Virus record (IMG/VR): IMGVR_UViG_3300029448_007166
Span: 1-22,632 of that record
Reading direction: 5' to 3' (one strand)
Length of the DNA stretch: 22,632 bases
Source: a virus
A program made the position numbers and the translations under genes. Each line of letters starts with the position of its first letter. Position 1 is the stretch's first letter. Under the pieces are notes generated by a model. That model was not told the origin of the DNA and searched no databases. It worked only from the letters and a program-made list of their open reading frames with translations. This document shows, one piece after another, positions 999-21,835 of this stretch.

Positions 999-3212
999 TT
1001 ACCTCGTTTCGTAAGATACAAATGCTTGTGCTGCGGTTGCGCCAGAGGCATTTGCTAGAACATGAAGATAAACAAAATCACCCTCGCTCACGGATGCCGT
1101 TCCAAAGGTTGTGGTTTCCCCTGTGACTCCGGTGGTTTCCGCTGTCGCTCCAGTGATGAAAGCGTTTGTTGGATTACCAAAGTCAGCACCAGCGATGTAA
1201 ACTGCTGCTGTCATACCACCCGCTGCTTTAGACTTCAGTTCAAACTTGGTGAGTGTTGCGTTGTATGGAATGCGATGAAGAGCGTCTGCTTTCGCACCAG
1301 TTGAAATGGCAGAGGATGCAGAGATGGTAAACGTTCCAACATCTTTTGCTGCACCTTTTTGATGAGTGCTATCGGCAAAGGTGATACCAGCGGATGTGAT
1401 TCGGATTCCGTCATTGAATTGTGTCTCTGTCGCAGTGAGTTTCATACCCTCTCTGCCACCAGCATCAAAATCAACCGTGTCAGTTCCAAATTGAATTTTT
1501 GTGTTTGTATCTCCTAGATGTCGAATACTAGTTGGTATATCAAAATCTGCATTTTCAACTTTGACAACACCATCATTATCATCAACAGTAAGTTTCACAG
1601 AGTTGGAGGAATCTTCAGGATCACCAATGACAACAACTTGATTTGCATCAAATCTGATACCAAGATCCAGTCCATTTGCTCCAATGCCTTTACCCGCTGT
1701 GATGAATTGATTGTCTGTAAAGGTGTTTGATTCGTTCTTGAAAGCGATTTGGGCTTCAGACGACAAGAATGTTCCGTCAGCGAAAGTGATACCGTTTGCT
1801 TTGATATTAAGACCACCACCAGAGATACCAACAGCGCCGCTCAAAGGAACTAAGTTAATACCACCATTACCAGAGTAAATATTAGCATCTGTCTGATCGT
1901 GTTCAATGCGAAGGTAATCATTCGCATCAGTCGAATCAGCGGAGTAAACAAGGAATTGAGGGTTTGTCATGCTGAGTGCAGATTTATCATCTGTAGACAT
2001 TGAACGATCACCATCAGCAAGGTCTGCTTTTCTACCCACGGCAAAGTGACCGTTGTTCCCATTCACACCAAACATCACCGTTCCATCATTATTATTGTTC
2101 TGTTGAAACCCTCTGTCCGAGGCATTGCCGAACATCAATCTAGCAGGTGAGCCGTCTGGAACATTTGTGTCAGAAAAAGTAATATCAGTGTCAAGTCTAA
2201 TTGCTTTGGTTACTTGTGTGCCTGATTCATCAATCACATTGATAACAGGACCGAATCCCCATTCGGTTGCGTCAATTTCAATACCAAAGTGATTTCCACC
2301 TTCATCGCTTGGAACAATTTGAATTGAACCGTCAGGACTATTGCGAATCACTTCACCGTTTGAGAAAACAAGATCACCAGCGAGTAAAATACCACCTTCA
2401 CAACTAATACCGCTGGAGGCAGTGATTCCCGCAACACTTAAACTAAGAGTTGATGTGTCAACAGAGCCAGTAATACCATTAAACGAACGAATAAAGTTTG
2501 CTGCGTTCGGAACAATTCTTAGGTAAATATCAGTGATACTTACTTGATCCAAACCCTGTTCGATATCGAATTCAGCCTGAACTGTGGAGGTGCTGGCACC
2601 TACAGTAATCGTGGTTTCACCGGAATTGACGATGGAATCATCACCACTCTGAGATTCAATTGCGATTGCAGCAGCCTGTGAAAAATCACCCGTCATTATT
2701 TCAAGATATCCACCATTATCTCTGAGTTTTTCAAACAGAGGCTTGAGATTATTTCCCTCTTTGTCTGTGTGATTGATTGATAATGTGTCAACCTCACTTG
2801 ATTTGTCAATATCCATGTGTCCTGAACTCGGAGTGCCAAGACCAGATCCAGAGGAAACCATTGTATATCTAAACCCACTGCGAGACGCTGTTGGTTGGAA
2901 GGTTCCGTCACTAAATGTGATACCTGCCGCTCCAGATATACCAGTTACAGGAAGAGTAAGTAAGGTTGTGTCGATGCTGCCGCTTAACCCGTTGAATGTT
3001 TCGACACCGTGTGTGATTTCAAGGTCGGTAAGTGTTACATCACCCGTCTTGCCTTGAACGGAAGTGACACCGACGATTGCACCAGTCACACCGTTGAATG
3101 TTGTAACTCTGTCACGAACTTTAACAAAGGCCACACCGTTATAGCGATATGTTTCACCTTCGTATGTGTAGGTGTCACCAGAACTTGGACTATTTGGAAA
3201 ATCAATACCCAT
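999..3212 (-). CDS. Large repeat-containing tail fibre protein (737 aa)
   Basis: This is a long virion-fibre-type protein. Residues 1-30 ([19 protein letters not shown]...) resemble the short attachment module at the end of the neighbouring collagen-like fibre. Imperfect repeats follow: TFNGVTGAIVGV (38-49), TFNGLSGSIDTT (72-83) and SFNGITGSVDTS (243-254), the latter two continuing into similar L-x-V-x-GI strands. A second repeat, GITF(A/S)D(G/S)T, occurs near 97, 474 and 609. The composition is Gly/Ser/Thr/Asn/Asp-rich with few Cys, as in beta-rich trimeric fibres. The last 110 residues (from about 625) look like a distinct Ala/Gly/Thr-rich domain, probably a tip or trimerisation domain. The ATG at 3212 overlaps the preceding stop by one base (TAATG), so translation is probably coupled. 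I see no intramolecular chaperone or enzyme motif. The structural assignment is firm in kind. The exact position in the tail or baseplate is unknown. Confidence 0.8.
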   Translation of the reverse strand: MGIDFPNSPSSGDTYTYEGETYRYNGVAFVKVRDRVTTFNGVTGAIVGVTSVQGKTGDVTLTDLEITHGVETFNGLSGSIDTTLLTLPVTGISGAAGITFSDGTFQPTASRSGFRYTMVSSGSGLGTPSSGHMDIDKSSEVDTLSINHTDKEGNNLKPLFEKLRDNGGYLEIMTGDFSQAAAIAIESQSGDDSIVNSGETTITVGASTSTVQAEFDIEQGLDQVSITDIYLRIVPNAANFIRSFNGITGSVDTSTLSLSVAGITASSGISCEGGILLAGDLVFSNGEVIRNSPDGSIQIVPSDEGGNHFGIEIDATEWGFGPVINVIDESGTQVTKAIRLDTDITFSDTNVPDGSPARLMFGNASDRGFQQNNNNDGTVMFGVNGNNGHFAVGRKADLADGDRSMSTDDKSALSMTNPQFLVYSADSTDANDYLRIEHDQTDANIYSGNGGINLVPLSGAVGISGGGLNIKANGITFADGTFLSSEAQIAFKNESNTFTDNQFITAGKGIGANGLDLGIRFDANQVVVIGDPEDSSNSVKLTVDDNDGVVKVENADFDIPTSIRHLGDTNTKIQFGTDTVDFDAGGREGMKLTATETQFNDGIRITSAGITFADSTHQKGAAKDVGTFTISASSAISTGAKADALHRIPYNATLTKFELKSKAAGGMTAAVYIAGADFGNPTNAFITGATAETTGVTGETTTFGTASVSEGDFVYLHVLANASGATAAQAFVSYETR

Positions 3213-4207
3213 TAGAGTTCCACCCAGTGATCATCGAATCGTGTGAACAAAATTGCGTTTGTCGTGTCATACCATCTATCTCCTGCGGAGGGACTTGCTG
3301 GTGGATTTTCTCCACTTGAAAATAATCCTGCGTCCGAAACTTCAACATCAACTTGTTTTCCTTTTCTCGAAACCGTAATGTTTGAACCCTTGAAATTAAT
3401 ATCATTTACTGATTTAATTACAATTGCTCGATCTTTCATGATACCAACGGCACCACCACCAGCACTCATGTATTTAGCAAGGTTTTGTGCGTTTCCGATT
3501 CCGGAAAGTTTTGAAACAACACTTTCTAATTTTTTTGTGTCGAACTCAAGTTTACCTTTTTCCTCATCATATATCAGAGGATACTTAGCAGAGATTGTAG
3601 AGAGATCACCGGAATCACCTTTGTCTCCCTTTACACCTTGCTCCCCATCAGATCCAGCAGGCCCGGCTGGACCGGGATCACCTTTTTGTCCTTTGGATCC
3701 TCTTGGACCTCTTTCACCTCTCGGTCCTTGAAGTCCTTTCGCGCCATCTCTCCCGTCCTGTCCCGCTTGACCGTCCTTACCGGCAACACCGGCAATGCCT
3801 TGTGGACCTTGCTCACCCGCGTCACCTTTGTCTCCCTTTGGACCCTGAACTCCTTGTTCACCTTGTGGGCCGATTTCTCCTTGCGGTCCTTGTTCACCTC
3901 GTTCACCTTGTGGACCGATAGGACCCTGCTCACCTTGGATTCCTTGTTCACCCTGCGGTCCTTGCTCACCAAGACCACCTCTTTCACCTTGAACACCTTG
4001 CAGTCCTTGTGAGCCACGATCACCGACAGGCCCAATCGGTCCCATAGCGCCTGGGGTTCCGGGCAAAGTCACAACCTCTGTTATTTCTTTTGTTTCAATT
4101 ACCTTTTCAATAATTTCTGGTTTAGGTGGTTCAACGACAGTCTCAACAGATTCATATACAATCTGAAGATCGTCGTCTCTTTTATTAAAATCCAGAAATC
4201 TCTTCAT
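3212..4207 (-). CDS. Collagen-like tail fibre protein (331 aa)
   Basis: The domains are clear by eye. Residues 1-48 form a charged N-terminal segment rich in Glu, Lys and Val, possibly a coiled or attachment region. From G50 to G200 every third residue is glycine, giving about 50 Gly-X-Y triplets in perfect register with many Pro, Gln, Glu and Lys (e.g. [19 protein letters not shown]). Residues 201-295 are a non-collagenous domain. Residues 300-331 are a short module with the motif [13 protein letters not shown] ending in WVEL. Collagen-like repeats form triple helices and are common as rigid shafts in phage fibres. The gene opens the structural block directly downstream of the glycosyltransferase cassette. 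No Shine-Dalgarno sequence is visible before the ATG at 4207, which is unusual for this window (see the separate promoter entry). The repeat DNA creates long antisense reading frames that are not genes. Confidence 0.88.
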
Positions 4208-5487: not shown

Positions 5488-6238
5488 CACTGTCTCCCAT
5501 GAACCATAAATTGTTCGTTTTTAATCTTTCGAGTTTGATTTCTTGTCCAACACAAAAATTTGCGTGAACAACTGTTTCTGAGCCGTGTCGCTCACTCACA
5601 CTAAAATATAAATGTCCGTTTGTTGCGAACGACGTTGGAAATGTGGTCCATCTCACATCTTTATTTATTTGAATTTTTCCGAGAAGAATCCAGTTCATCA
5701 AAGTTTGATCATGCACCTCTTTCCACTCTGTTTTGTGACTCTCTGTTTCTTTTGCATGTGAAACCAAACTTAAATACTCTTCAAGAAAATTTTTCACATT
5801 GTCATTGTTTCGGACGTAAAAGAAGCCGGTGCAAATGTGCTGTCCTGTCGGTTTGTCTGTTTGAAAAACCATCTCAAAATTAGTAGTTCGTGCGATTTCA
5901 AAAAGTTTTTCTGACGGATCACTCGTAAAAACCACATCGGTATCAACCAAAACAAAATCATCAGTATCATTTTCAATAATTTCATTATACAGTGCTTCTA
6001 TTTTTTTAAACGAGATATTTATAAAGTTATCCGTTCCATAGCGATTGTGTTCCTTTATATCAGAGTTAAGTTCCCTTAGTTCAACGTAATCAGGAATATC
6101 ATAATTAAATTCCAACTCCTCTCTCGCTCCATCAGCACAATATACAACAACTGGCAAGTCACTGTGATTTCGTAAAGAAGTGATCATGTTCATGCAAAAA
6201 ACGGTATTACCTGTGGTGGTAATCGTAATAAATTTCAT
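5480..6238 (-). CDS. Putative nucleotide-diphospho-sugar glycosyltransferase, DxD type (252 aa)
   Basis: A cytoplasmic GT-A-like glycosyltransferase. The N-terminus (MKFITITTTGNTVFC) looks like the first strand and helix of the fold. The metal-binding motif is DTD at 99-101 within VLVDTDVVF, and CTGFFYVRNND further on is the pattern I know from the Pfam nucleotid_trans type (plant RRA-like and bacterial relatives). A conserved-looking DQTLMNW segment follows. I chose the ATG at 6238 because it forms an ATGA overlap with the epimerase stop. An upstream in-frame TTG (6256) would add six unlikely residues. There is no signal peptide or membrane segment. Donor and acceptor cannot be told from sequence. 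The gene is translationally coupled to the GalE-like epimerase, which may supply its donor. Confidence 0.68.
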   Translation of the reverse strand: MKFITITTTGNTVFCMNMITSLRNHSDLPVVVYCADGAREELEFNYDIPDYVELRELNSDIKEHNRYGTDNFINISFKKIEALYNEIIENDTDDFVLVDTDVVFTSDPSEKLFEIARTTNFEMVFQTDKPTGQHICTGFFYVRNNDNVKNFLEEYLSLVSHAKETESHKTEWKEVHDQTLMNWILLGKIQINKDVRWTTFPTSFATNGHLYFSVSERHGSETVVHANFCVGQEIKLERLKTNNLWFMGDSDE

Positions 6239-7131
6239 AATTGACTCACAATCCAATCTTTTAATTTAACTTTAGGTTTCCAACCCAAAACGGTTTTTAC
6301 TTTTTCAATATCTGCGAGAGTTTCTCGTGACTCACCAACTCTTGGTTCAATCATTATTTTATTTTTTGAAATAAAGTCGGCAAGTTCATTTACTGAATGA
6401 TTGATTCCGGTTCCGAGATTAAAAACTTCACCATATTTTTCCATCTTAATTGTGGATGCAAAAATGTTTGCACTAACTACATCAGAAACATGAGTGAAGT
6501 CTCTTCGTTGCTCTCCGTCCGGAACAATTGTAAGTGGTTGTCCCTTTTTCAATTGTTCTAAAAATAAACCAATCACCGGAGCATATTGACCTCTCGTTGG
6601 TTGACGTTCGCCATAAACATTAAAGTATCTAAACACGACCGTTTCCAATCCAAACAAATCAGAATACATTTTGCATAGTTTTTCACCTGATACTTTTGAT
6701 ACTGAATATGGATTCAAACAATCATCTGACTGAGTTTCAACGTTAGGAATTTTATTTTTTAAACCATACGCAGATGATGTTGATGAGTAAACAACTCGTC
6801 GCACTCCGGCCTCTCTTGCCGCTTGTAGAATAGAGCAAGTTCCGTATGCGTTTGTTCTAACTGCCTTCAGCGGATTTTTAATCGCCGGTTGAATTCTGGA
6901 TTCTGCCGCCAAGTGAAAAACAGTATCAACGTTATTAAAAAGACCTTTGATCAAATCATGATCGCAAATGTCATATTTGTAATACTTTGCTTTATTATTG
7001 TAATGAAAATATTTGTGTGACTCCGAGGACTCATCATCAATCACAACAACACCGTGTCCTGCGTCAACCAAATTGTCAACAATATGTGAACCAATAAAAC
7101 CCGCACCACCAGTTACCAAGTATTTCTTCAT
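6235..7131 (-). CDS. NAD-dependent sugar epimerase/dehydratase, GalE-like extended SDR (298 aa)
   Basis: An extended short-chain dehydrogenase/reductase acting on nucleotide sugars. The NAD-binding motif GGAGFIG lies at 8-14, followed by an acidic position (DDE, 32-34). HLAAES lies at 73-78, the catalytic Ser region SSTSS at 116-120 and the catalytic YxxxK at Y142-K146 (PYSVSK). RYFNVYGERQ and the C-terminal GDF-like segment (RRDFTHVSD) are typical of UDP-hexose 4-epimerases such as GalE/WbpP. The length is slightly short of the usual 310-340 residues but the domain looks complete, ending after the GWKPK segment. The likely reaction is epimerisation of a UDP-sugar (or similar) for the glycosyltransferases around it. 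Substrate choice (UDP-Glc or UDP-GlcNAc) cannot be decided. The start forms an ATGA overlap with the GDPD-like gene. Confidence 0.88.
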   Translation of the reverse strand: MKKYLVTGGAGFIGSHIVDNLVDAGHGVVVIDDESSESHKYFHYNNKAKYYKYDICDHDLIKGLFNNVDTVFHLAAESRIQPAIKNPLKAVRTNAYGTCSILQAAREAGVRRVVYSSTSSAYGLKNKIPNVETQSDDCLNPYSVSKVSGEKLCKMYSDLFGLETVVFRYFNVYGERQPTRGQYAPVIGLFLEQLKKGQPLTIVPDGEQRRDFTHVSDVVSANIFASTIKMEKYGEVFNLGTGINHSVNELADFISKNKIMIEPRVGESRETLADIEKVKTVLGWKPKVKLKDWIVSQL

Positions 7132-7583
7132 CTAAATTTTTCCTTACATGCAAAAACAAAATCAGAGCAAACCGCATAAAAATTTCTTTGTTTGTAATTT
7201 TCAACTTCCTCAAGAGACAACAAAGGAATTACACATCGACAGTTCATTTTTTCACCAAAATCATGGGACCAAATATATCCGTGACTCGTTATGGTAAACC
7301 GATCTCTCTCATGCCAAAAGTGTTCGAGCGAAGTTGTATTTAAAAAACCAAGCGATTCATAGTCCTTTGCGTGTAACCAAAGGTTTACCTGTCTTTCTAA
7401 CAACCACATCTCACTGACTTTGTATTGTGGTTCATCGTGTCCTAACCAAAGTTCTCCATCTTTTGTTCTGACATCAATCTCAACATCAAAACCAAGTTTG
7501 ATCGCTTCATCAATATAGTCGGGACTATTTTCCCGATCAGGATTAAGTCCGTCTAAGTTCCCTCTATGTGAAATAAAAATCAT
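7128..7583 (-). CDS. Short glycerophosphodiester phosphodiesterase-like protein (151 aa)
   Basis: Residues 1-55 carry the signature of the GDPD/PI-PLC-like phosphodiesterase barrel: HRG at 6-8, EN at 18-19, EIDVRTKDG at 35-43 (Glu35 and Asp37 as metal ligands) and GHD at 48-50 (the second catalytic His). The family usually has 230-300 residues, so this protein lacks about half of a full TIM barrel. It could be a reduced family, as I recall for short GDPD-like proteins in bacterial capsule loci, or a remnant, but there is no frameshift and the reading frame is intact. GDPDs hydrolyse phosphodiester bonds of glycerol phosphates. Here it sits between a HAD phosphatase and an epimerase with ATGA overlaps on both sides, so a role in making or trimming a phosphorylated polyol or sugar is an inference from context. 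Confidence 0.7.
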   Translation of the reverse strand: MIFISHRGNLDGLNPDRENSPDYIDEAIKLGFDVEIDVRTKDGELWLGHDEPQYKVSEMWLLERQVNLWLHAKDYESLGFLNTTSLEHFWHERDRFTITSHGYIWSHDFGEKMNCRCVIPLLSLEEVENYKQRNFYAVCSDFVFACKEKFR

Positions 7584-7879
7584 AGTTCGTCCGGTCTCAT
7601 GTTTTTATCATCGTAAAAAACGTCATAATATGGTTTGTCACACCGAAGTTCGTGATACTTTGCACCCCACGATTCTAATTGACTTTCCGTTAATTTATAC
7701 CAATCTTTTCCGGATCTGCTACCTCTTGCTGTCCAATACACAATTCGATTGCCATCATCATAAAGTTTATTTACTTTAAGAATGGTTTCTGGTCTTGGTG
7801 TCGAAGAGTAATAATCCCTTACGTCATCGCCGGGAGTATCACAAATAGTTTCATCAATATCAACGTAAATGATTTTCAT
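7580..7879 (-). CDS. Small HAD-superfamily phosphatase (99 aa)
   Basis: A capless HAD hydrolase with all four motifs visible. Motif I is VDIDET (nucleophile D7, acid D9), motif II is YWTARG with T50, motif III is K82 (CDKP) and motif IV is YDD at 89-91. At 99 residues it is shorter than most HAD phosphatases but complete, resembling small capsule-locus phosphatases that remove phosphate from sugar or polyol phosphates. Its ATG lies inside the last codons of the nucleotidyltransferase gene (20-base overlap) and its stop forms an ATGA overlap with the GDPD-like gene, so the three are likely translated together. The substrate is unknown. A sugar or polyol phosphate made by the upstream kinase-aldolase protein is plausible. 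Confidence 0.8.
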   Translation of the reverse strand: MKIIYVDIDETICDTPGDDVRDYYSSTPRPETILKVNKLYDDGNRIVYWTARGSRSGKDWYKLTESQLESWGAKYHELRCDKPYYDVFYDDKNMRPDEL

Positions 7880-8687
7880 TAAAAGTTTTCCAATAACGAT
7901 AACAACTCACAAGGTCTTTTTGTGTTTTGACCTGTCCCTTTTCAATGATACTTTTCCACGCTTCCATATTTTCAACTTCCTCTGGTGTTCCCATAACCAA
8001 AGCGAATGGTGTATCATAACAACTAACTCTCAGTCCATCTTGAACAAGAAGATTATACACGAGCGTTACATAAAATTCACCATTATAGTTGATGTTTTTT
8101 TCAACTGCTTCGTCGAAATACTTTTTGATGTATGAGCCTTTTTTAAAGTAATACGTTCCCGTTGAGGCATGTTCGCTCATTGGATCATCCGTGTAACACT
8201 CTTTCTCTTTGATTTCCTCAAGCATGCCACCATCCATTTTCATGAATGCCATCTTTGTGTTGTTGAGAGTGTGCGGATGAAAACCAGAATGTGAAAGAAC
8301 GCATCCATCTAAGTTATTATCATCAACATATTTTGTAAAATCATCACGATCCCACACAAAAGGATTATCACAATAAGTAACGATAACCTCTTCGTCATCC
8401 ACGATATCATCGTAAACTTGTTGGACTGTATAAACAGGACCGTATTTGTGAAGAGGCATCGAAACTACCTTTGAGTTTGGTTTCAACTCAAGTAGAATTT
8501 TTTCCATATCTGTTTCTTGTAAATGCTTCTCGTTACAAATGAAAACAAATTCATCCTCATCAGAAAAGGCATCGAGAATATACTCGATAACTCTTTTACC
8601 CATAACTTTAATAAGAGGTTTTGGATCGGTGTAACCCGCTTGAACGAAGCGATTACCCGTCCCTGCCATCGGAACAATAATCTTCAT
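7860..8687 (-). CDS. Sugar/polyol-phosphate nucleotidyltransferase (275 aa)
   Basis: A nucleotidyltransferase of the GT-A-like NTP_transferase superfamily. The N-terminal signature IIVPMAGTGNRF (3-14) binds the nucleotide, PKPL at 22-25 supplies the conserved Lys for the phosphates, and CDN at 106-108 (D107) is the likely metal site. A short left-handed-helix or hexapeptide domain is absent, so it is a single-domain enzyme. It probably transfers CMP, UMP or dTMP-type nucleotides to a phosphorylated sugar, polyol or similar small molecule. Cytidylyl transfer is common in relatives from capsule loci, but the base cannot be read from sequence. The ATG at 8687 has AGGAAGG 6 bases upstream and overlaps the kinase-aldolase gene by 35 bases, the longest overlap in the cassette. 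That suggests tightly coupled synthesis of consecutive enzymes. Confidence 0.82.
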   Translation of the reverse strand: MKIIVPMAGTGNRFVQAGYTDPKPLIKVMGKRVIEYILDAFSDEDEFVFICNEKHLQETDMEKILLELKPNSKVVSMPLHKYGPVYTVQQVYDDIVDDEEVIVTYCDNPFVWDRDDFTKYVDDNNLDGCVLSHSGFHPHTLNNTKMAFMKMDGGMLEEIKEKECYTDDPMSEHASTGTYYFKKGSYIKKYFDEAVEKNINYNGEFYVTLVYNLLVQDGLRVSCYDTPFALVMGTPEEVENMEAWKSIIEKGQVKTQKDLVSCYRYWKTFNENHLR

Positions 8688-10056
8688 GAAGAGCCTTCCT
8701 GTATTTTTCTTCTTCCATATTCAATAACTTAGTAACCTCAGTTTCACTCATACAGTTAGGAGTCAAACCCACATCTCTTTGTATGTATAGCATATATTGA
8801 TTGATTTTTTTCATGTCATCATTCAACACAACTGCGTCAGGAAAAAGAAAACAGGAGGTGTCAATTTGTAATTGCTCAACACCGAATGTTTTAAAAGTTT
8901 TAGACTTACGAATCAACCACTCTTTGCACAAATGATTTATTTTCATGGATAAATTGAACACATCACACGCCGAGTCACCACAACAAATAAGACCGTGATT
9001 CTCAAGTAAAATTATTTTTATGTCTGCTCTCTTTTTAAATGACTCCGACAACTCCTTTCCGGGGGTAACATACTGAATGTAATCATAGTCATAATCTTTC
9101 AAAATTTCATTTATAATTTCTTTAGATTCTTGAGAACATAAAACTGAGTTCAAGTATATCGGATGTGTGTGAAAAACAAATTTAGATTCTATCTTACTAT
9201 GAAATCCTACCTCCATAGATGGCCGTTTTTGCTCCTCAATCAGAGAGTTCCCATCACGATCACATATTGTAAATCCATCTAACATGAGAACATCTTGCAT
9301 TTGTGTTCCAGAAGATGTTATGATTAATTTATCTTTAAATTTATATGATACGTTACCGCCCGCCGATTGAATGAGATCGTGTTCAAACGACGATCTCTTA
9401 CATAGGAACAAAAAATCACGATGTGCATCGTAAAGTTTTTTAATATCCCGCATCATCGTTTCATGTTGTTTTGTTTTTGTCTCGTATTCGAGGTGAACCA
9501 TGCCATCTTTTCTCTCCTCGAAACGAACAATTATATCTGCGTTTTCTTTTTGTGGAGTGATATACATTCTCTCGTCTTTTTCTCGACGAACAAGAACGTC
9601 TTCGACTTGTTTTTTAGTATAACCTCTCCTCTGTGTATCTCTGCTCATTTTCCACTGTTTTTTTAGTTCAGGATCTGTGTCAACATACACTTTAAACTTA
9701 GAAATTTTATTTACTCTTGTGTCAAAAAGAGAGTGCAGTCCCTCATAAATTATATTTGATTTTGGTTTTATAGTGGACTCGGGATCAAACTTACCTGTAT
9801 TGTGGTTGTAGTGTTTTCTTTTAATTTGTTTGCCAAGAAATAAATTATGAATATCACTAAAACCTTTATCTAAGTTGTTTGCGTTCGGATCTAAGTGAGT
9901 GTGATCACTCCATTTTTTGTGTCCCCGTTCCCACTTATGTAAATCGTCCCCACAAACGTGAATGGTTTGGTGGGGATCGAGATACATCGCTAACAAGTTC
10001 GAGAACGTTGTTTTACCAACGCCTGAACTGCCAGAAATCAAAAAGACATTGTTCAT
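8653..10056 (-). CDS. Fusion of a phosphoribulokinase/uridine-kinase-like kinase and a class II aldolase (467 aa)
   Basis: Two domains are visible. Residues 1-185 form a P-loop kinase: Walker A GSSGVGKTT (9-17), GDDLHKWERGHKKW (36-49), EGLHSL (105-110) and a lid segment SRDTQRRGYT...VLVRREKDE...YITPQ (138-169) that closely follows the phosphoribulokinase/uridine kinase pattern. Residues about 210-467 form a class II aldolase/adducin domain: GGNVSYK (233-239), SSGT (248-251), the probable catalytic Glu282 in MEVGFH, the zinc ligands of HTHP (296-299) and ENHGLI (352-357). Both sites look intact. Class II aldolases make or break C-C bonds of sugar phosphates such as fuculose-1-phosphate. The kinase would phosphorylate a small sugar, polyol or nucleoside. 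The fusion suggests the product of one domain feeds the other. The start forms an ATGA overlap with the preceding GT. The domain calls are firm. The substrates are unknown. Confidence 0.82.
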   Translation of the reverse strand: MNNVFLISGSSGVGKTTFSNLLAMYLDPHQTIHVCGDDLHKWERGHKKWSDHTHLDPNANNLDKGFSDIHNLFLGKQIKRKHYNHNTGKFDPESTIKPKSNIIYEGLHSLFDTRVNKISKFKVYVDTDPELKKQWKMSRDTQRRGYTKKQVEDVLVRREKDERMYITPQKENADIIVRFEERKDGMVHLEYETKTKQHETMMRDIKKLYDAHRDFLFLCKRSSFEHDLIQSAGGNVSYKFKDKLIITSSGTQMQDVLMLDGFTICDRDGNSLIEEQKRPSMEVGFHSKIESKFVFHTHPIYLNSVLCSQESKEIINEILKDYDYDYIQYVTPGKELSESFKKRADIKIILLENHGLICCGDSACDVFNLSMKINHLCKEWLIRKSKTFKTFGVEQLQIDTSCFLFPDAVVLNDDMKKINQYMLYIQRDVGLTPNCMSETEVTKLLNMEEEKYRKALHEDYCSDGRDG

Positions 10057-10919
10057 TCAAGAATACCAGAGAGTTCAATAACTCGCATCATTGCCTCTTC
10101 TTGCTTTTCGTATGGTCGTTCACAATGAATATCAACAATTTGTTTTTGCCTTAGAAGATCGGGTGAGTAACGATAGTCCATAATTGATTCGTCCCAAACA
10201 CTTCTATCTACACGTTGTCTTGAGTTATCATAACAAACACCGTTAAAGTGTAATTTTTTCTCACGAATCATATCAAAAATTCTTTCTGATGAATAACTTT
10301 CTTCGGCACACCAATAATACCAGTCAATATCAGAATGTCCACCATCCGCTGGACCTAAACCATACTTATGGGACTCGGTTATAAAAGAAACCTGTTCATT
10401 AAATGGACGATCAAGATCAAAACAACGAACGAAATTTTTCCCTTTAGAAACATGGTAGTGTCCGGCAAGATCGGCTCCAGTAGTTTTACTCCCAGCCGCT
10501 CTCGCATGTGCTTGTGATCCCTCCTGAAGAAACGCATCCAAGGTTCCTCTTCTCGGTTTTGATATTCCAGCAAAATTTAAATGTAGATATGAGTTTTCTT
10601 CAAATTCAGAAATGTTATCTGTGAAATATTGCTTATTTAGTGGGATCATATCAATGTCACCAAGCATCCAAGTTGTTTCCTCTTCAGTCTTTGGAAAATC
10701 ATATTTCGACCAAGTAATTTGAATCACTTTTGGTAAATTTTCGTCAAACTCCCGTTCAATAACTTCACCATATTTTTCGTGCATGTTGGTGTCGTTTTTT
10801 TTACCAAACAACAAACAAACAGGCTCAATGCCGAGGGCTTCCTTAAACACTTGAGATTGTATGTTCCAGAAGGAACTATATTCCACCGAGGTAGAAAAAA
10901 TAACTTTATCTATTTTCAT
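10053..10919 (-). CDS. Putative DxD glycosyltransferase (288 aa)
   Basis: A GT-A-like protein without a family I can name. The first strand is KIDKVIFSTSVEYSSFW, and the likely metal-binding motif is DID at 88-90 within WMLGDIDMIPL, preceded by a conserved-looking Trp. Later segments include GHYHVSKG (about 152-159), SDIDWYYW and LHFNGVCYDN, consistent with an acceptor side containing aromatic residues. It is not close to the triplet of paralogues upstream beyond the general fold. There is no membrane segment. The ATG at 10919 lies within the last codons of the preceding GT (14-base overlap). The calling basis is the DxD motif, length and position among clear GTs, so donor and acceptor are not predictable. 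A metal-dependent hydrolase is less likely because no His cluster is seen. Confidence 0.6.
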   Translation of the reverse strand: MKIDKVIFSTSVEYSSFWNIQSQVFKEALGIEPVCLLFGKKNDTNMHEKYGEVIEREFDENLPKVIQITWSKYDFPKTEEETTWMLGDIDMIPLNKQYFTDNISEFEENSYLHLNFAGISKPRRGTLDAFLQEGSQAHARAAGSKTTGADLAGHYHVSKGKNFVRCFDLDRPFNEQVSFITESHKYGLGPADGGHSDIDWYYWCAEESYSSERIFDMIREKKLHFNGVCYDNSRQRVDRSVWDESIMDYRYSPDLLRQKQIVDIHCERPYEKQEEAMMRVIELSGILE

Positions 10920-11736
10920 CGTTTACACCTTTCAATATTTTCTCATATCTTTCTTTTTCTTTTTCAGTTATGAAAATAACTTTTCCGAGGTAATCATTGT
11001 CATGAAACTGACCACACGAGGAACATTTTAAGGGACAATGACCTGGTCCCTCTGGTGGTTGCCAATAAGGAAATCTCTCCGCATCATCTTCTATACCATG
11101 ATGCCACTCTGGGAAAGTATTTTCCCACCATTTGTCACCTCTAAATCTTGGGATCGGAAAAGGATGTCTTTCCTCGACGGGGAATATATGCCAATCGTCA
11201 TGAACAAAAGCATCACGAACAACCTGATCATATAGAGTTTTTAAAAATCTCTGATCGCAGCCATGATTATTGTGTGGATCGTGTTTAACATAGTTTAGTA
11301 TCAACTCTTTCATGTTCTTAATGTAGTTGCCTCGACAACCCCATAGACCACCACAAATTTTCCAAGCGTGTTGACATCCATCTCTCATTATGTGAAAGGG
11401 TTTTCCGCTTTCTAACCACTCATCTACCGCTGCTTTATCTCGTATACTTAAACGAGAATCTGCATCACGAGAAATCATTACATCAACCTCTGGATCTTCT
11501 GCTGCCAGAAATCTCCAAAACATTCCTCTCCACCCAACGTTTTCGTTTGTTTCAATGACCTCAACGTTTTCTCTGAACTCCAAATTTTCGATAATAGGAG
11601 TTGGAACATCGGGACCAACATAAAATCTACAAGTCCAATCAGGCCACTCTTTTTCCGCTATCTCTGCATTAAGAATCGAACCCATAGTGTATGCTATGTT
11701 GTCTCCCCACAAACTAATTGAAATCACTTTGTTCAT
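10906..11736 (-). CDS. Glycosyltransferase paralogue, third of a tandem triplet, with Cys-rich tail (276 aa)
   Basis: This protein shares a full-length pattern with the next two upstream genes: a first strand VISISLWGD, WTCRFYVG, WRFLA, and the probable metal site RDADSRL followed by RDKAAVDEW and HIMRD. This looks like a GT-A fold enzyme with a DxD motif. The last 47 residues start with GPGHCPLKCSSCGQFHDND, giving C-x3-C-x2-C plus a nearby His, which could bind zinc or form a compact knob. The same tail occurs in the immediate upstream copy. Between them lie RHPFPIPRFRGDKWWE and HHGIEDDAERFPYWQPP, also shared. The ATG forms an ATGA overlap with the upstream copy. It is presumably a glycosyltransferase that adds one sugar of the cassette's glycan. 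The specificity is unknown. Confidence 0.68.
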   Translation of the reverse strand: MNKVISISLWGDNIAYTMGSILNAEIAEKEWPDWTCRFYVGPDVPTPIIENLEFRENVEVIETNENVGWRGMFWRFLAAEDPEVDVMISRDADSRLSIRDKAAVDEWLESGKPFHIMRDGCQHAWKICGGLWGCRGNYIKNMKELILNYVKHDPHNNHGCDQRFLKTLYDQVVRDAFVHDDWHIFPVEERHPFPIPRFRGDKWWENTFPEWHHGIEDDAERFPYWQPPEGPGHCPLKCSSCGQFHDNDYLGKVIFITEKEKERYEKILKGVNDENR

Positions 11737-12611
11737 AATATATCTTTCATTATGTGTTCATACTTTTTCTTTTCATCGCTGGTAATAAATCTATGTTTAC
11801 CTATGTATTCGTTGTCGTGAAATATGTTGCAAGCGGGACACTTTAAAAAACAATGACCAGGTCCATCCGGTGGCTGCCAATGAGGATACTTGTATGCGTC
11901 ATCCTCGATACCACTGTGCCATTCTGGAAGATCCCTCTCCCACCAACCATCCCCCGTTTCTCTTGGAATTGGGAACGGTCTTTTTTTCTCTCCCGCAAAA
12001 ATAAGTTGAGTTGGATCGGTCCATTCATCGTGAATTAACGATCTCTTTTTCACATAGGGATATATTATTTTTTCTAAAAACAGTTGATCTATTCCAAACC
12101 AGTTATGTTGATTTTGTTGTTTAGATTTTACACGAGCCATGTTTATTAACTCAGACATGTTAGGCAATACACCACCTTTGGCACCAAACATTCCAGCAGC
12201 GATTGGTCGAGTATGTTGACAGTGATCTCTCATTATGTGAAAATCTTCATTACTAGAAATCCACTCATCCACAGCAGCCTTGTCTCTAATATTTAATCTA
12301 GAGTCAACGTCTCTACATATTACATAATCCAGGTCATCTCCTATGGCATAAAATCTCCATAAGGTAGAAAAATAACCCTCATTATTTTCAAACAAAACAA
12401 CCTCAACATTGTCTCTTGATTTAAACTCTGTAATAAGAGATTCGGGAACTGTGCTACTATCAATATAATATCTACATGTCCAATCTTTCCAGTGTTTCTT
12501 TGCGATATCTGCATTCAGAATAGCACCGATGAAATATTGTTCAATGTCAGGTTGGGCTCTTCTTGTTTCTTTATCTTGTTCCCACAAAGAAAATGATATT
12601 ACTTTTTTCAT
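11733..12611 (-). CDS. Glycosyltransferase paralogue, second of a tandem triplet, with Cys-rich tail (292 aa)
   Basis: The opening is VISFSLWEQD, and compared with its neighbours it has an insertion near residues 12-24 (TRRAQPDIEQYF region). WTCRYYID, WRFYA, the probable metal site RDVDSRL and IRDKAAVDEW follow in the same order as in the downstream copy. Residues 250-292 hold GPGHCFLKCPACNIFHDNE, the same C-x3-C-x2-C-plus-His tail. By eye the two copies are close to half identical through the C-terminal half (KRPFPIPR, GIEDDA, HWQPP), so they probably arose by tandem duplication and then diverged in donor or acceptor use. The start has only a weak ribosome site, 8 bases after the stop of the first copy. 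The reading frame is intact. The enzyme class is inferred from the DxD motif and context. Confidence 0.68.
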   Translation of the reverse strand: MKKVISFSLWEQDKETRRAQPDIEQYFIGAILNADIAKKHWKDWTCRYYIDSSTVPESLITEFKSRDNVEVVLFENNEGYFSTLWRFYAIGDDLDYVICRDVDSRLNIRDKAAVDEWISSNEDFHIMRDHCQHTRPIAAGMFGAKGGVLPNMSELINMARVKSKQQNQHNWFGIDQLFLEKIIYPYVKKRSLIHDEWTDPTQLIFAGEKKRPFPIPRETGDGWWERDLPEWHSGIEDDAYKYPHWQPPDGPGHCFLKCPACNIFHDNEYIGKHRFITSDEKKKYEHIMKDIL

Positions 12612-12619
12612 TGAAACTT

Positions 12620-13474
12620 CTACTTTTTATCCCACATCATAATGCTTTTATATGCGTCTTTAATCGCTTGATAAGAGGTTGCGGTTGGAACATCATTTTC
12701 ATTCCAGTCTTGGCCGACAAATTCGTGTGGTCCTTTTTGAAATTTTATTGGGAACCCAACGGACGGAAGTTGTCCGGCGGTTTTTTCTGTCGGATGGTGT
12801 CCACCAAAAGCGTTGTAGTGTGGAAAACTATCGTGAACAAAAACATCATCGGCAGTTAACATTCCATAAAGAAAACGTAAGAATTCTTGATCAATGCCTT
12901 TTTGATTATACTCTCTTGGATGTAATCTTTGACCTGAGTTAGGGGGCTGTTTTACACCAGCGGTCACTTGCATACTGTGAGCCAACCATTTACTATAGAC
13001 ATCTTTCATTGTTCCATCCGTGGGGAGTTTTTTATTTTTAAACATTTCAAAAAACTTTGGGACATGACAGCCCCACATACCTGCTAATATTGGATGAGTG
13101 TGTAATGGATGATCTCTCATGATGTGCATCGCTTTTCCAGAATTAATCCACACATCAACTGCTCGTTTTTCTCTTTCACCCAAACGACAATCAGTGTCCC
13201 TCAAAATAACATATTCAACGTCTGTATTTAAATCAATTGCAAAAAATCTCCAAATGCTTGCTTGCCAATCATTTTCATATTCATTCATCATTACAATTTC
13301 TGTGTTATCAAAACTATTTAATTCGTAAATAGTTTTAGAGGGGACATCATCTCCAATATAAAATCGACAGTCCCACTCTGGAAAATAAACGTCCGCTAAC
13401 TCAGCGTTTCTGATGGCACCAACGTTATACAAAGGTGCGTCACCCCACAAACAAAAACTAATAATTCTTCTCAT
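12620..13474 (-). CDS. Glycosyltransferase paralogue, first of a tandem triplet, without Cys-rich tail (284 aa)
   Basis: The N-terminal two thirds align by eye with the two following genes: IISFCLWGD, WDCRFYIGDDV, IWRFFA, RDTDCRL as the DxD-type site, KRAVDVWINSG, HIMRD and AGMWGC. The C-terminal third differs. It has its own insertion (about residues 165-200, with TAGVKQPPNSGQRLH) and ends without the GPGHC...C..C tail, keeping only a GPHEFVGQDWNEND segment near the equivalent place. It is therefore the most divergent member of the triplet. I chose the ATG at 13474 because AGGGG lies 7 bases upstream and the protein then starts at the same strand as its paralogues. A longer frame exists upstream but would overlap the previous gene without purpose. 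Likely a glycosyltransferase. The acceptor is unknown. Confidence 0.65.
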   Translation of the reverse strand: MRRIISFCLWGDAPLYNVGAIRNAELADVYFPEWDCRFYIGDDVPSKTIYELNSFDNTEIVMMNEYENDWQASIWRFFAIDLNTDVEYVILRDTDCRLGEREKRAVDVWINSGKAMHIMRDHPLHTHPILAGMWGCHVPKFFEMFKNKKLPTDGTMKDVYSKWLAHSMQVTAGVKQPPNSGQRLHPREYNQKGIDQEFLRFLYGMLTADDVFVHDSFPHYNAFGGHHPTEKTAGQLPSVGFPIKFQKGPHEFVGQDWNENDVPTATSYQAIKDAYKSIMMWDKK

Positions 13475-13478
13475 AATG

Positions 13479-14990
13479 TTACCCCTGTGTAGCAGAAATT
13501 TCTCTATCAAAAAGATAATGATATAAAATTAAATCAATAAATGCCTCGGACTTAATAAGCCCAGAATCAAGTAACCTATCACAATAGTCACTGTCCTCTC
13601 CAAAACTTTTTTCTGGAAATCTAATTTTTCTGGCAAACTCGGTTCGCACTGGATTTAAGTGATTAACAGGTCGTCGTTGAATTCCATTTTCATCTTTCCA
13701 GTGACCACCGTTTTGGATGGCGTGATGGAAAACCATTTGTTGTTCCCCGTGTTCATAATACATTCCCTTGAACCCAACACAATCAACTTGTGGATGATTT
13801 TCTAATGTTTCAACAAGTGCTTTGAAATATACGTCAGATACTAAATCATCATCATCAATAAAACAAACATATTTACCTCTCGCACGATCTAAAACTTCAT
13901 TTCGTTTTTCACCGACTGTTTTAATTTTTTCATCGAGAGCGACAACATATTCAACTTTTCCTTTTAAATGTGGAGTATCGGACATAATTTTTTCTAAATG
14001 ATTCATCAAACGAAGATACAAATATCTTCTCTCTGGTATCGTAAGAATGCCGATAGACAAAATAATTTCATCATGCATTATGGCTTCTTTTTTATCTAAA
14101 CCTTTTTGTATCTCAACACCCATTCGTTCATGCAAAGGAACGCAATACTCTTTTGCCTTTTCAAAATTTAAATCAACTTTGTCTTTCATTTTTTCATACA
14201 AACGTGAGTCATTTTCAATTCGTTTACATGCGTCCATAATTTCATCAACCGAGTTACAAATTATCATGCCATCAACATCAAAAAAATCACCGATGTTAGG
14301 ACATCCCCAGTAGATAGGAATTGTTTTTGCCAGAAGAGCGTCACAAAGTTTTTCGGTAAAGTAATTTTCTTCTTTACTACTTTCAACTACGATTGAGAAC
14401 ATTGATTTGAATAAATGTTTTTTATCATCATCAGGTAGAAAATTTTCTGACACAGGATACCGTGTGCTAGAATAAAATACTTTATTTTGTATTTCACCCT
14501 GCCTTGTCCAAACACCATGTCTAATTTCATATCCCTCTTTACCACGATGATTTGTGGTCATGAAAGAAATGCTATTTGTCTTTCCTACATGCAATTCATC
14601 AATTGATGGATGATAAAACCCAATAGAATTTTTGTCCTGAATATCGACATCTTTGTGCAACCACGTTGTTCCATATGGAAAAAATACTGCGTTTCTACAC
14701 TTCTCTAAAATTTCATCTCTCGCAGTTAAAATTAAATCATATTTGTGGTGATTTTCAATAATAACTTCATGGGACTCACACCACGCAGAGGTTTCTGGTT
14801 CTGTAAAATTACAAAATACTTTGAAGGCATCAGATGATCTAAAAGAAATTGGATAGACCGGATGTGTTTCCCCGTTTTTATGTGGATGTAAAGATTCACC
14901 AAACCGATTAAAATGAATTTCAACCGGAGCATCAAAATTCATTTTATTGTCATTAATAATATAGTGACCATTTAATACACTTGGTTTCAT
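13479..14990 (-). CDS. Two-domain glycosyltransferase: GT10 (fucosyltransferase-type) fused to GT2 (503 aa)
   Basis: Residues 1-300 contain a family 10 (alpha-1,3/4-fucosyltransferase-type) core. FSIVVESSKEENYFTEKL (198-215) and DALLAKTIPIYWG (217-229) match the GT10 donor-binding motif, followed by the GDFFDVDGMI segment (234-243). Residues 305-503 form a GT2 domain: IILSIGILTIPERRYLYL (309-326), a metal-binding stretch FIDDDDL (377-383) and the catalytic GEDSDYCDRL (464-473). Either domain is normally a separate enzyme. The fusion would let one protein add two successive sugars, one probably fucose-like from a GDP-sugar and another from a different nucleotide sugar. The ATG forms an ATGA overlap with the upstream GT10 gene. 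There is no membrane segment or signal, so it acts in the host cytoplasm. The domain identity is well supported. Actual donors are not. Confidence 0.82.
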   Translation of the reverse strand: MKPSVLNGHYIINDNKMNFDAPVEIHFNRFGESLHPHKNGETHPVYPISFRSSDAFKVFCNFTEPETSAWCESHEVIIENHHKYDLILTARDEILEKCRNAVFFPYGTTWLHKDVDIQDKNSIGFYHPSIDELHVGKTNSISFMTTNHRGKEGYEIRHGVWTRQGEIQNKVFYSSTRYPVSENFLPDDDKKHLFKSMFSIVVESSKEENYFTEKLCDALLAKTIPIYWGCPNIGDFFDVDGMIICNSVDEIMDACKRIENDSRLYEKMKDKVDLNFEKAKEYCVPLHERMGVEIQKGLDKKEAIMHDEIILSIGILTIPERRYLYLRLMNHLEKIMSDTPHLKGKVEYVVALDEKIKTVGEKRNEVLDRARGKYVCFIDDDDLVSDVYFKALVETLENHPQVDCVGFKGMYYEHGEQQMVFHHAIQNGGHWKDENGIQRRPVNHLNPVRTEFARKIRFPEKSFGEDSDYCDRLLDSGLIKSEAFIDLILYHYLFDREISATQG

Positions 14991-19949: not shown

Positions 19950-20252
19950 TTAGTTGACTTCAACCCATTGTTTGGAATTTCCATCGTCTAAAAACTTGAA
20001 TAATATACCAGTGTTTTTATCATACCATTCATCACCGATATTTGGATTGGCATGAGGATTATTGCCATTACTATGAACAAAAGATTGGGTTAGTCTCTCC
20101 CAAGAATCACCAACACCCGGCTCTCCGTCCAAATAGGTATTTCTTTTTATGGCTCTAAATGTGCCACCACCATGAGAAACCTCATCTCCTCTCTCGTAAA
20201 CAACGGGAAGACCCCGATCATTTATGGGGATGTAGTCTCCTCTATCTGTCAT
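19950..20252 (-). CDS. Small fibre-module protein (100 aa)
   Basis: Residues 19-35 (YERGDEVSHGGGTFRAI) resemble the short beta-modules Y..GD.V...G..Y.A seen in carbohydrate-binding modules of the CBM5/12 type. The last 36 residues contain GDEWYDKNTGILF and finish WVEVN. They match, by eye, the C-terminal module of the collagen-like fibre ([13 protein letters not shown] ... WVEL). It is therefore most likely a virion surface, fibre or neck protein rather than a replication protein, although it stands between the methyltransferase and RNase H. The ATG forms an ATGA overlap with the methyltransferase stop. A late-promoter-like box lies about 136 bases upstream. No enzymatic residues are visible. 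Confidence 0.66.
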   Translation of the reverse strand: MTDRGDYIPINDRGLPVVYERGDEVSHGGGTFRAIKRNTYLDGEPGVGDSWERLTQSFVHSNGNNPHANPNIGDEWYDKNTGILFKFLDDGNSKQWVEVN

Positions 20253-21835
20253 GGTTTCCAGAACACCATAACTGGCTCGTGTTTTAGATATCTATCGTTC
20301 ACTTTGCAATAGTTCCTACAAGTTGGTTTCCCATCTTCTCCTACACGATTCTGTCCCGGCATTCCTTCGAGTGCCATCTTCAATGTATATTTATATTCGA
20401 CACCATATTCTTCGAGAATATTTTTGGTGTCCTCCTGAAGCGGGAGGTATTTACCAGACACCAGAATGTCTGCGATGTTCCACAGGAGATATCTCTCGGA
20501 CTTCAGCCAAGTGACTGCCGTTTCTAATGTGGGACGAAGGAATCCATCTCTCCACGATTCGTAAGAGGAACCAAACTTCTTGTAGGACTGATTCTCATTC
20601 TCACTATATGCTTCACGGTTGAAGTATGGTGGTGAAGTAAAGACAAGATCAACCTCACCCTTGTGCTTCTGAAATTTTTCTTCAAACTGAATTACTTCGG
20701 ACCCAAGACAATGGACTTCATAAGTGTTAACAGGTCCATTAAAAAATGTGTTGGCTCGGTTTGTCTTTGTGTTGTATAAATCTGCGATGGCTGAATACTT
20801 TGAGGAACCATCCGGCAAATAATTATCAACGTTAGGGTCAGTGCCGATGTAATGAATGTTTCGGTCATCACGAACGGACATCGCTCCGAGAATCCTACCT
20901 CCCCATCCTGCGGACGGATCATAGATTTTAATAACTTCTTGATCTTTGATATCTTCAGTAAATCTTTCATAGAGATATTTCGCTGTCATTGGTGGGAAGT
21001 TCACGGCAGGTTGAATGTAACCAATCCGGAACGCTTTGAAATTAGTAGGAAAGACCTTCTTTCCCTTATCATATATGCGGATTGAATATACCTTATCGTC
21101 CGGCATATTTTCGATATCGAATGTTGAGTGATGACGATACTGAAGTTGTCCAGAGTCTTTGAATCGCTGAACATCTTCTCGTGTGACTTGTAGGATCTTT
21201 GATTGTTCCAGTTGAAAATAACCAGAGTTCAAACCGTCACGAATCTTGACTTGTTCTAGAATGAAGTCTTTGCCGATGAACAAGTCGGGAGTCGAGAAGA
21301 AAGTTTCCAGCCACTCTACTCCAGACGATACTTCAATCACAGCATACTTCTTGTCGTTCTTGATTGCCGATAACGCAAAACTATAAAACGAGTCACGACG
21401 GAAGTGTCGCTTACATCCCTTGAAGAATTGCTCCTCACGATCCGGATCTGACACCAAGTCATAGATGGAGTAGCCGTTATCCTTTTCGGTGTAGTTGATC
21501 CGTGTTTTGAACAAGTTGTCAAAGAATTGATCTGCCTCCACACCCATTCGTGATTTATTCACGATCACATCTCGTGGAATGTCAGAGAGTTCATCGTCAC
21601 GCTCGAAATCACGAACAGGATAACTCTCAAGTTTGTTCCACGCTTCGATAATTTCTTCTTCGTTCTTGCCAGTCCGTGGAGGACAACCGTAAGCATCCCA
21701 CGCATCACAGATTGTCTTTCGCATTTCGACAACCCATTCACGAAACTGATCCTCGTTCATTTCAAGGAGTTCCTCAAAGCAAACATTCACATCACTGTTA
21801 ATCACATAATTATTTCGTTCGTAAAATGGTTTCAT
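20249..21835 (-). CDS. DNA methyltransferase-like protein, N4-cytosine/N6-adenine type (528 aa)
   Basis: The C-terminal half is an S-adenosylmethionine-dependent methyltransferase domain: motif I DPSAGWGGR (306-314), YIGTDPN (330-336) as the acidic motif II, and the catalytic TSPPY (400-404). GESP-like elements are absent. The order motif I before TSPPY agrees with gamma-type amino-methyltransferases, including N4C enzymes with SPPY. The first 280 residues have no recognisable family. They are charged and may form a target-recognition or nuclease-like domain. I take the ATG at 21835 (ATGA overlap with the PLP gene, AGGA about 5 bases upstream) over a longer frame from 21892. The role may be protecting phage DNA from restriction or taking part in a base modification with the coupled PLP enzyme. 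The latter is speculation. Confidence 0.82.
   Translation of the reverse strand: MKPFYERNNYVINSDVNVCFEELLEMNEDQFREWVVEMRKTICDAWDAYGCPPRTGKNEEEIIEAWNKLESYPVRDFERDDELSDIPRDVIVNKSRMGVEADQFFDNLFKTRINYTEKDNGYSIYDLVSDPDREEQFFKGCKRHFRRDSFYSFALSAIKNDKKYAVIEVSSGVEWLETFFSTPDLFIGKDFILEQVKIRDGLNSGYFQLEQSKILQVTREDVQRFKDSGQLQYRHHSTFDIENMPDDKVYSIRIYDKGKKVFPTNFKAFRIGYIQPAVNFPPMTAKYLYERFTEDIKDQEVIKIYDPSAGWGGRILGAMSVRDDRNIHYIGTDPNVDNYLPDGSSKYSAIADLYNTKTNRANTFFNGPVNTYEVHCLGSEVIQFEEKFQKHKGEVDLVFTSPPYFNREAYSENENQSYKKFGSSYESWRDGFLRPTLETAVTWLKSERYLLWNIADILVSGKYLPLQEDTKNILEEYGVEYKYTLKMALEGMPGQNRVGEDGKPTCRNYCKVNDRYLKHEPVMVFWKP
20388..20395 (-). promoter_or_regulatory. Exact T4 late promoter box TATAAATA inside the methyltransferase gene
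   Basis: The minus strand reads TATAAATA here. With T4 spacing the start site would be near 20382, about 130 bases before the fibre-module gene at 20252. That would let a structural gene in an early-gene context be expressed late. Another exact match at 6023-6016 lies inside a glycosyltransferase gene with no structural gene close by, so chance matches clearly occur. Confidence 0.3.

Follow-up and report, generated by a model that had tools for sequence, protein, structure and literature searches.

A phage kinase–aldolase fusion and its gene module as a candidate source of sugar precursors

Why does a marine phage join a phosphoribulokinase (PRK)-type kinase to a class II aldolase in one polypeptide, inside a string of overlapping genes? 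The question is raised by IMG/VR record IMGVR_UViG_3300029448_007166, of which positions 1 to 22,632 were analysed here (the window, 22,632 nucleotides). A sequence-only reading had taken the window for phage DNA, in agreement with its IMG/VR origin and with a clamp loader that has about 56% identity to its counterparts in cyano- and pelagimyoviruses. Sequence and structure comparison identify an intact PRK-type kinase and a zinc-dependent class II aldolase in a single chain, encoded in an overlapping gene string with a nucleotidyltransferase (NTP), a HAD phosphatase and a GDPD-like protein. By sequence, the fusion is a viral, fused form of an operon widespread in bacteria. We are highly confident of the enzyme types and of the module as assigned, and use for a glycan is likely. 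A pentulose-bisphosphate route is a tentative assignment, to which we give a little less than an even chance. The same caution applies to the full statement, that this is the bifunctional enzyme of a sugar-precursor module in which a pentulose-bisphosphate route feeds a nucleotide-activated unit for a glycan.

Two active sites in one chain

The fusion is a single chain of 467 residues with an ATG start. It lies in the following setting.

8653..10056, (-) strand: kinase–aldolase fusion, with a PRK-type kinase (residues about 1-185) and a class II aldolase with C-terminal extension (about 205-456); Pfam, NCBIfam and PDB matches, AlphaFold2 (AF2), Foldseek, at least 34 further viral contigs
9502..10056, (-) strand: PRK-type kinase domain; Walker A G9-T17, D37, H40, R44, E105, K136, R139, D140 and R144, invariant or nearly so in the viral set and true PRKs; best NCBIfam model PRK07429
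8653..9444, (-) strand: class II aldolase domain; N235, S249-G250, S280, E282, H296, H298, H354, with P406-D407 and E450/R453 in the C-terminal extension; no variation at core residues among 28 fused viral and 52 operon aldolases
10053..10919, (-) strand: uncharacterised protein directly upstream; no Pfam match; homologs in the equivalent position in many viral loci
7860..8687, (-) strand: nucleotidyltransferase (NTP1), in the family of the first half of the bacterial tandem NTP-NTP; PF12804/PF00483; 3′ of the fusion in 32 of 32 flanked viral contigs
7580..7879, (-) strand: small HAD phosphatase, EcbF/BcbF-like; TIGR01689 (20 bits), phrog_1238; in 20 of 32 viral modules
7128..7583, (-) strand: small GDPD-like protein with HRG, EIDV and GHD motifs; weak PF03009 match; in 32 of 32 flanked viral modules
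6235..7131, (-) strand: NAD-dependent nucleotide-sugar epimerase/dehydratase, an accessory that is not constant in the module; PF01370 (8e-59); in only some relatives

Both halves exceed the Pfam cut-offs, PF00485 (PRK) over residues 7-178 (1.1e-39, 136.7 bits against a cut-off of 22, profile positions 4-188 of 196) and PF00596 (Aldolase_II) over residues 219-380 (2.1e-21, 77.1 bits against 22.2). As sequence matches, both are far beyond chance. In the PDB the sequence matches PRKs at 1.5e-35 and L-fuculose-phosphate aldolases at 4e-8. AlphaFold2, given an alignment of 11 viral sequences, predicts two folded domains (pLDDT 88.2, pTM 0.85), and Foldseek aligns the kinase half with the cyanobacterial PRK 9qko (201 columns, 2.0 Å) and the aldolase half with FucA 2opi (TM 0.72 on the target). 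As far as a model can tell, neither active site is collapsed. Across about 30 diverged viral sequences, 37-59% identical to the query, the mapped catalytic and zinc residues of both halves show no or almost no variation. The Walker A motif of a PRK-type kinase (GSSGVGKTT at 9-17) lies in the first half and Glu282, HTHP (296-299) and ENHG (352-355) in the second, as the sequence-only reading had it; domain matches, model, folds and residue conservation agree with its view of two complete active sites in one chain.

The best NCBIfam model for the kinase half is the phosphoribulokinase PRK07429 (187.7 bits, below its cut-off of 236), and the C-terminal part of PRK is missing. Residues were compared across 30-31 kinase domains from viruses, 49 kinases from bacterial operons and six other PRKs. 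K15 of the Walker A motif, D37, R139-D140 and R144 are invariant across the viral set. By alignment, the catalytic site comprises equivalents of the R. sphaeroides PRK mutagenesis positions D42, H45, R49, E131, K165, R168, D169 and R173. The positions matching D42, R49, K165, R168, D169 and R173 show no variation in the compared kinases, and that of H45 differs in one viral sequence. Of the viral kinases, 30 of 31 have E105, the counterpart of E131, but only 20 of 49 bacterial operon kinases do. The PRK pocket residues H40, R44, Y83 and H85 are likewise kept. W42, W49 and H54 occur in nearly every viral and operon kinase and in none of the other PRKs. This sequence evidence places the fusion kinase in a separate PRK subfamily; with W42, W49 and H54 departing from true PRKs, the acceptor may be other than ribulose-5-phosphate (Ru5P).

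As for the aldolase half, all 28 fused viral and all 52 operon aldolases keep the zinc ligands H296, H298 and H354 and the catalytic E282, and none of them varies at the phosphate-binding residues N235, S249-G250 and S280. Phage and bacterial aldolases also have in common a C-terminal extension in which PD and E/R residues are conserved. RhaD-type bifunctional aldolases and FucA are the best NCBIfam models. In set A4 (22 operon aldolases plus the window's), 23 of 23 members match the PRK08324/TIGR02632-type and FucA/RhaD models and one of 23 matches the Ru1P aldolase model (at 1e-5), which the window aldolase does not pass (29 bits against 300). We predict a zinc-dependent class II aldolase of the FucA/RhaD branch that carries out aldol cleavage.

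The ORFs overlap in series. The fusion shares 4 bases with 10053-10919 and 35 with 7860-8687, and the string runs on through 7580-7879, 7128-7583 and 6235-7131, so the coordinates confirm the reported overlap of nucleotidyltransferase, HAD and GDPD-like genes with the fusion. The protein at 10053-10919 is perhaps a glycosyltransferase. NTP1 is 38-46% identical to split-form and tandem-NTP proteins, and hhalign relates the phage GDPD-like protein to the operon GDPD-like family (probability 90%); HR, ExD and HD motifs are in common with GDPDs. Between the phage HAD and the operon HAD, hhalign finds the DxDxT motif as the only agreement. The phage protein belongs to another HAD subfamily, with no evident orthology to the operon HAD, for which it possibly substitutes.

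Elsewhere in the window, three consecutive related ORFs of about 276-296 residues (10906-11736, 11733-12611 and 12620-13510) appear to be tandem paralogs, and the one tested has no Pfam match. A 331-residue ORF (3212-4207) with a long collagen-like Gly-X-Y stretch adjoins a large probable tail-fibre or structural ORF (999-3212), and a 547-residue ORF (20249-21892) has a TSPPYF motif that suggests a DNA methyltransferase.

A viral fusion and a cellular operon

The architecture had seemed unfamiliar from phages, and tblastn finds no fusion in 50,697 GenBank phages. A viral scan with the single protein as query also gave no matches. Viral relatives were found instead by a degenerate YNHxTGxFDP DNA pattern and a family alignment, and IMG/VR has at least 34 further distinct contigs in which a single ORF encodes both kinase and aldolase, at about 33-59% identity to the query. 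In the 32 with flanks, nucleotidyltransferase and GDPD-like genes lie downstream in every case; the small HAD is present in 20, with one further weak match, and none was detected in 11. No bacterial or archaeal fusion was seen among the loci retained for 219 relatives from bacteria and archaea, and 203 SAR86-order genomes and 397 Campylobacterota genomes gave none either. The only plasmid match spanning both halves is three separate genes on one E. coli plasmid.

In the trees, the fused kinases make up a single viral group that also contains a few unfused viral sequences (SH-aLRT 89); the fused aldolases form one viral clade, L117 included (SH-aLRT 84). A single clade of all fused kinases that shuts out every unfused one is rejected by the AU test (p 0.001). 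The unfused members inside the kinase group comprise L117 (a broken fusion), L016 (a kinase fragment) and L013 (a split form), and for this reason we tentatively prefer the reading of one fusion event with later change over several origins. In L117 (5980-7342) the viral kinase–aldolase is apparently frameshifted at the linker within an intact module. This one seemingly split relative could favour an assembly artefact or a decaying gene, a reading to which we give practically no credence for the window, since at least 34 further contigs hold the fusion with invariant or nearly invariant active sites and each half falls in a single viral group. For the family as a whole it is ruled out on the same contigs and residues.

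Unfused, the same functions occur as a conserved set in about 50 bacteria and archaea; the earlier idea of a phage route largely stands but was drawn too narrowly around phages. Across 52 operon loci from bacteria, archaea and an E. coli plasmid, we counted aldolase in 52, kinase in 49, nucleotidyltransferase in 45, HAD in 42, a GDPD-like gene in 32 and GtrA in 23; the loci were fetched by a kinase or aldolase match, so the counts are independent for the other genes and not for these two. The operon consists of a membrane-domain–PRK protein, HAD, aldolase, tandem nucleotidyltransferase (often a pair) and GDPD-like protein. Its kinase has an N-terminal multi-pass region of about 390 residues with no Pfam match, which by eye looks like a GT-C-type membrane domain, and retains a C-terminal extension resembling that of PRK. 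In L044 (8834-10864), L036 (8795-10840) and about 47 others with PRK behind the multi-pass region, more than half have no acidic residue at the E105 position. Where flanks were read, the surroundings are O-antigen or S-layer type genes and glycosyltransferases, with GT2, GtrA, PMT_2, rml-like and WbpM/FnlB-like neighbours, several of these names being read from sequence.

Holders of the module include phages, Campylobacter-size genomes, SAR86, Bacteroidota, Gastranaerophilales, Paenibacillus, Leptospiraceae, E. coli plasmids and archaea. The operon DNA is 100% identical between two E. coli plasmids, each about 33 kb long and one of them typed IncR (L021, NZ_CP145712.1, and NZ_JCAPUP010000005.1), and no E. 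coli chromosome searched carries it. Eight Campylobacter-size genomes have HAD beside the PRK domain, fused to it in seven of eight; the GDPD-like gene comes before this pair, and aldolase and NTP-NTP come after it. Here the operon adjoins apparent heptose and GDP-mannose genes. These HAD–PRK fusions lie in capsule-like loci (L165-L172, e.g. L165:6513-10622), with HAD and kinase as separate ORFs in L168. A HAD/phosphoribulokinase protein is listed for a C. coli capsule locus (PMC3928612). We found no published description of the kinase–aldolase–NTP–HAD–GDPD module in the accessible literature, which excludes most subscription journals. Each enzyme comes from a known family; the combination and the probable pathway are new relative to the literature searched.

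A candidate pentulose-bisphosphate route and its rivals

In the proposed route, the kinase would phosphorylate a pentulose phosphate, in the simplest case D-ribulose-5-phosphate to ribulose-1,5-bisphosphate (RuBP), and the HAD would take off the 5-phosphate to leave ribulose-1-phosphate. The aldolase would then split or re-form the C3-C4 bond of the ketose-1-phosphate, giving DHAP and glycolaldehyde or, by epimerisation through the reversible aldol reaction, an epimeric pentulose-1-phosphate. The nucleotidyltransferase would activate the phosphorylated product, and phage glycosyltransferases would use it to alter a host surface or virion glycan. The kinase–aldolase fusion would couple the first and third of these steps.

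Pentulose-bisphosphate chemistry is suggested by the operon HADs, because they match an RuBP 5-phosphatase model, together with the PRK-type kinase in front. All 30 operon HADs tested match NF053830 (archaeal RuBP 5-phosphatase; best E 1.3e-58); for the member tabulated the score is 169.7 bits, below the cut-off of 330 yet leading by 42 bits. Phosphatase and aldolase genes occur together: most operons have them side by side or within a single cluster, and 20 of 32 viral modules have them in the same gene string. In haloarchaea, RuBP 5-phosphatase yields ribulose-1-phosphate, which a class II aldolase converts to DHAP and glycolaldehyde (PMC9700705). Against the RuBP route, the kinase departs from true PRKs at W42, W49 and H54, the aldolase is closest to RhaD-type bifunctional aldolases and not to the Ru1P aldolase model, the operon HAD score given sits below its curated cut-off, and HAD is undetected in 11 viral modules. 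The proposed chemistry also gives the GDPD-like protein no role, and would make the NTP superfluous if DHAP and glycolaldehyde are the end products. The earlier claim of a route to a nucleotide-activated sugar or polyol phosphate draws support from the whole set, which is strongly conserved across viruses, bacteria and archaea and lies near glycan genes; either could be the final product. Phage DNA hypermodification was set aside as a use, bacterial copies lying near glycan genes.

The most serious competitor is a relay similar to GDP-heptose synthesis, in which a ketose phosphate assembled by the aldolase would receive a second phosphate from the PRK-like kinase and lose the first to the HAD, after which the NTP would make an NDP-ketose (such as xylulose, fructose or sorbose) or an activated polyol. 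The enzyme types and the kinase/HAD/nucleotidyltransferase logic are those of GDP-heptose, the altered kinase pocket fits an acceptor other than Ru5P, and a picocyanobacterial NTP-NTP/GDPD cluster has ribulose-phosphate 3-epimerase and polyol-phosphate dehydrogenase-like genes instead. D-Xylulose, D-fructose and L-sorbose are constituents of C. jejuni capsules (PMC10919079), so an activated ketose has to be taken seriously as a rival product, and the operon of Campylobacter-size genomes stands beside those apparent heptose and GDP-mannose genes. The operon HAD nevertheless best resembles RuBP 5-phosphatase, and no strain found here has both a known ketose-containing glycan and the operon; we regard the relay as possible, though on the unlikely side.

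That the aldolase domain works as a 4-epimerase, dehydratase or decarboxylase is improbable: AraD, MtnB and OtnC share its fold, the MtnB and OtnC models match weakly and FucA's second phosphate-binding Ser is Met/Ile in the fusion family, but the aldolase-branch Glu (E282) and all three zinc His are invariant and the best-scoring models are RhaD/FucA aldolases. The genes might also serve auxiliary metabolism, passing pentose phosphate carbon to glycolysis as DHAP during infection with no glycan link. The haloarchaeal route is catabolic (PMC9700705), and a marine alphaproteobacterium (L078) has HAD, aldolase and a carbohydrate-kinase-like gene beside ABC-transporter-like genes (names from sequence). 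NTP and GDPD-like genes in all flanked viral modules and most bacterial ones, with glycosyltransferases around where flanks were read, make such a role very unlikely.

For the pentulose-bisphosphate route, cyanophages offer a further comparison. S-SM2 (SSM2_204-208) and Bellamy (209-213) have tandem NTP, class II aldolase, HAD and GDPD-like genes in series, the same kinds as in the fusion module; their aldolase is unfused, and no PRK-family kinase was detected in either genome. Cyanophage hosts make RuBP themselves. These phages may lean on it, which would fit the RuBP route; the idea rests on two cases because, among 386 genomes sampled, no photosynthetic cyanobacterium showed the full operon without the kinase. 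psbA is present in both kinase-less cyanophages and absent from 29 fusion-lineage contigs, a weak observation as many are fragments. Two rubisco-bearing genomes (G248, G353) have, between them, NTP-NTP/GDPD clusters with ribulose-phosphate 3-epimerase and polyol-phosphate-dehydrogenase-like genes or one 1,293-residue protein, which again suggests pentulose-phosphate chemistry. The large ORF (L157:6828-10709, in G248) has weak PRK-like, class II FBP-aldolase-like and ribulose-phosphate 3-epimerase parts and adjoins a tandem nucleotidyltransferase and a GDPD-like gene; it is apparently a separate kinase–aldolase combination in the same context. A broader and rather doubtful extension is an undescribed surface-sugar pathway via RuBP outside carbon fixation, common to phages and many bacteria. 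PRK, RuBP 5-phosphatase and ketose-1-phosphate aldolase would feed the NTP to give an activated pentulose or smaller unit, phages of hosts with no Calvin cycle bringing an aldolase-fused kinase and cyanophages using host RuBP.

Significance and comparison with known systems

Uridine kinase, HAD hydrolase, class II aldolase, GDPD and nucleotidyltransferase are annotations that usually suggest no connection between the genes; here these genes form one conserved module. Three fusions, kinase–aldolase in phages, HAD–kinase in Campylobacter-size genomes and membrane domain–kinase in other bacteria, link its steps into a testable pathway. If the RuBP chemistry is true, RuBP acts in glycan assembly apart from carbon fixation, and capsule ketose residues could gain a biosynthetic route.

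The phage kinase shares with class II phosphoribulokinases (PF00485; cyanobacterial, plant and archaeal, e.g. PDB 6hzk and 9qko) its fold (2.0 Å over about 200 columns), Walker A, the mapped catalytic residues and the YNHxTG and RD...R motifs. It differs in lacking the C-terminal PRK part, in its fusion to an aldolase, in standing outside a Calvin cycle context and in the W42/W49/H54 signature, which bacterial operon kinases also carry. The aldolase half has the fold, E282, three zinc His and phosphate-binding Asn/Ser/Gly of FucA/RhaD and of bifunctional RhaD-type aldolase/dehydrogenases (PRK08324, TIGR02632). Unlike the latter, the phage protein has no dehydrogenase part, carries a kinase on its N side and scores far under the equivalog cut-offs.

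GDP-heptose synthesis (GmhA, HddA, GmhB, HddC) uses a sugar-phosphate kinase, a HAD phosphatase and a MobA-like nucleotidyltransferase in series, as the phage module would. There the kinase is of the GHMP type and works with an isomerase, whereas the phage module has a PRK kinase and an aldolase. In the non-carboxylating pentose bisphosphate pathway of halophilic archaea (PMC9700705), RuBP comes from ribose-1,5-bisphosphate without PRK, the aldolase is of the FucA type, the role is catabolic, and no nucleotidyltransferase or GDPD-like gene is described. Common to that pathway and the one proposed here are a HAD RuBP phosphatase and a class II aldolase acting on a ketose-1-phosphate.
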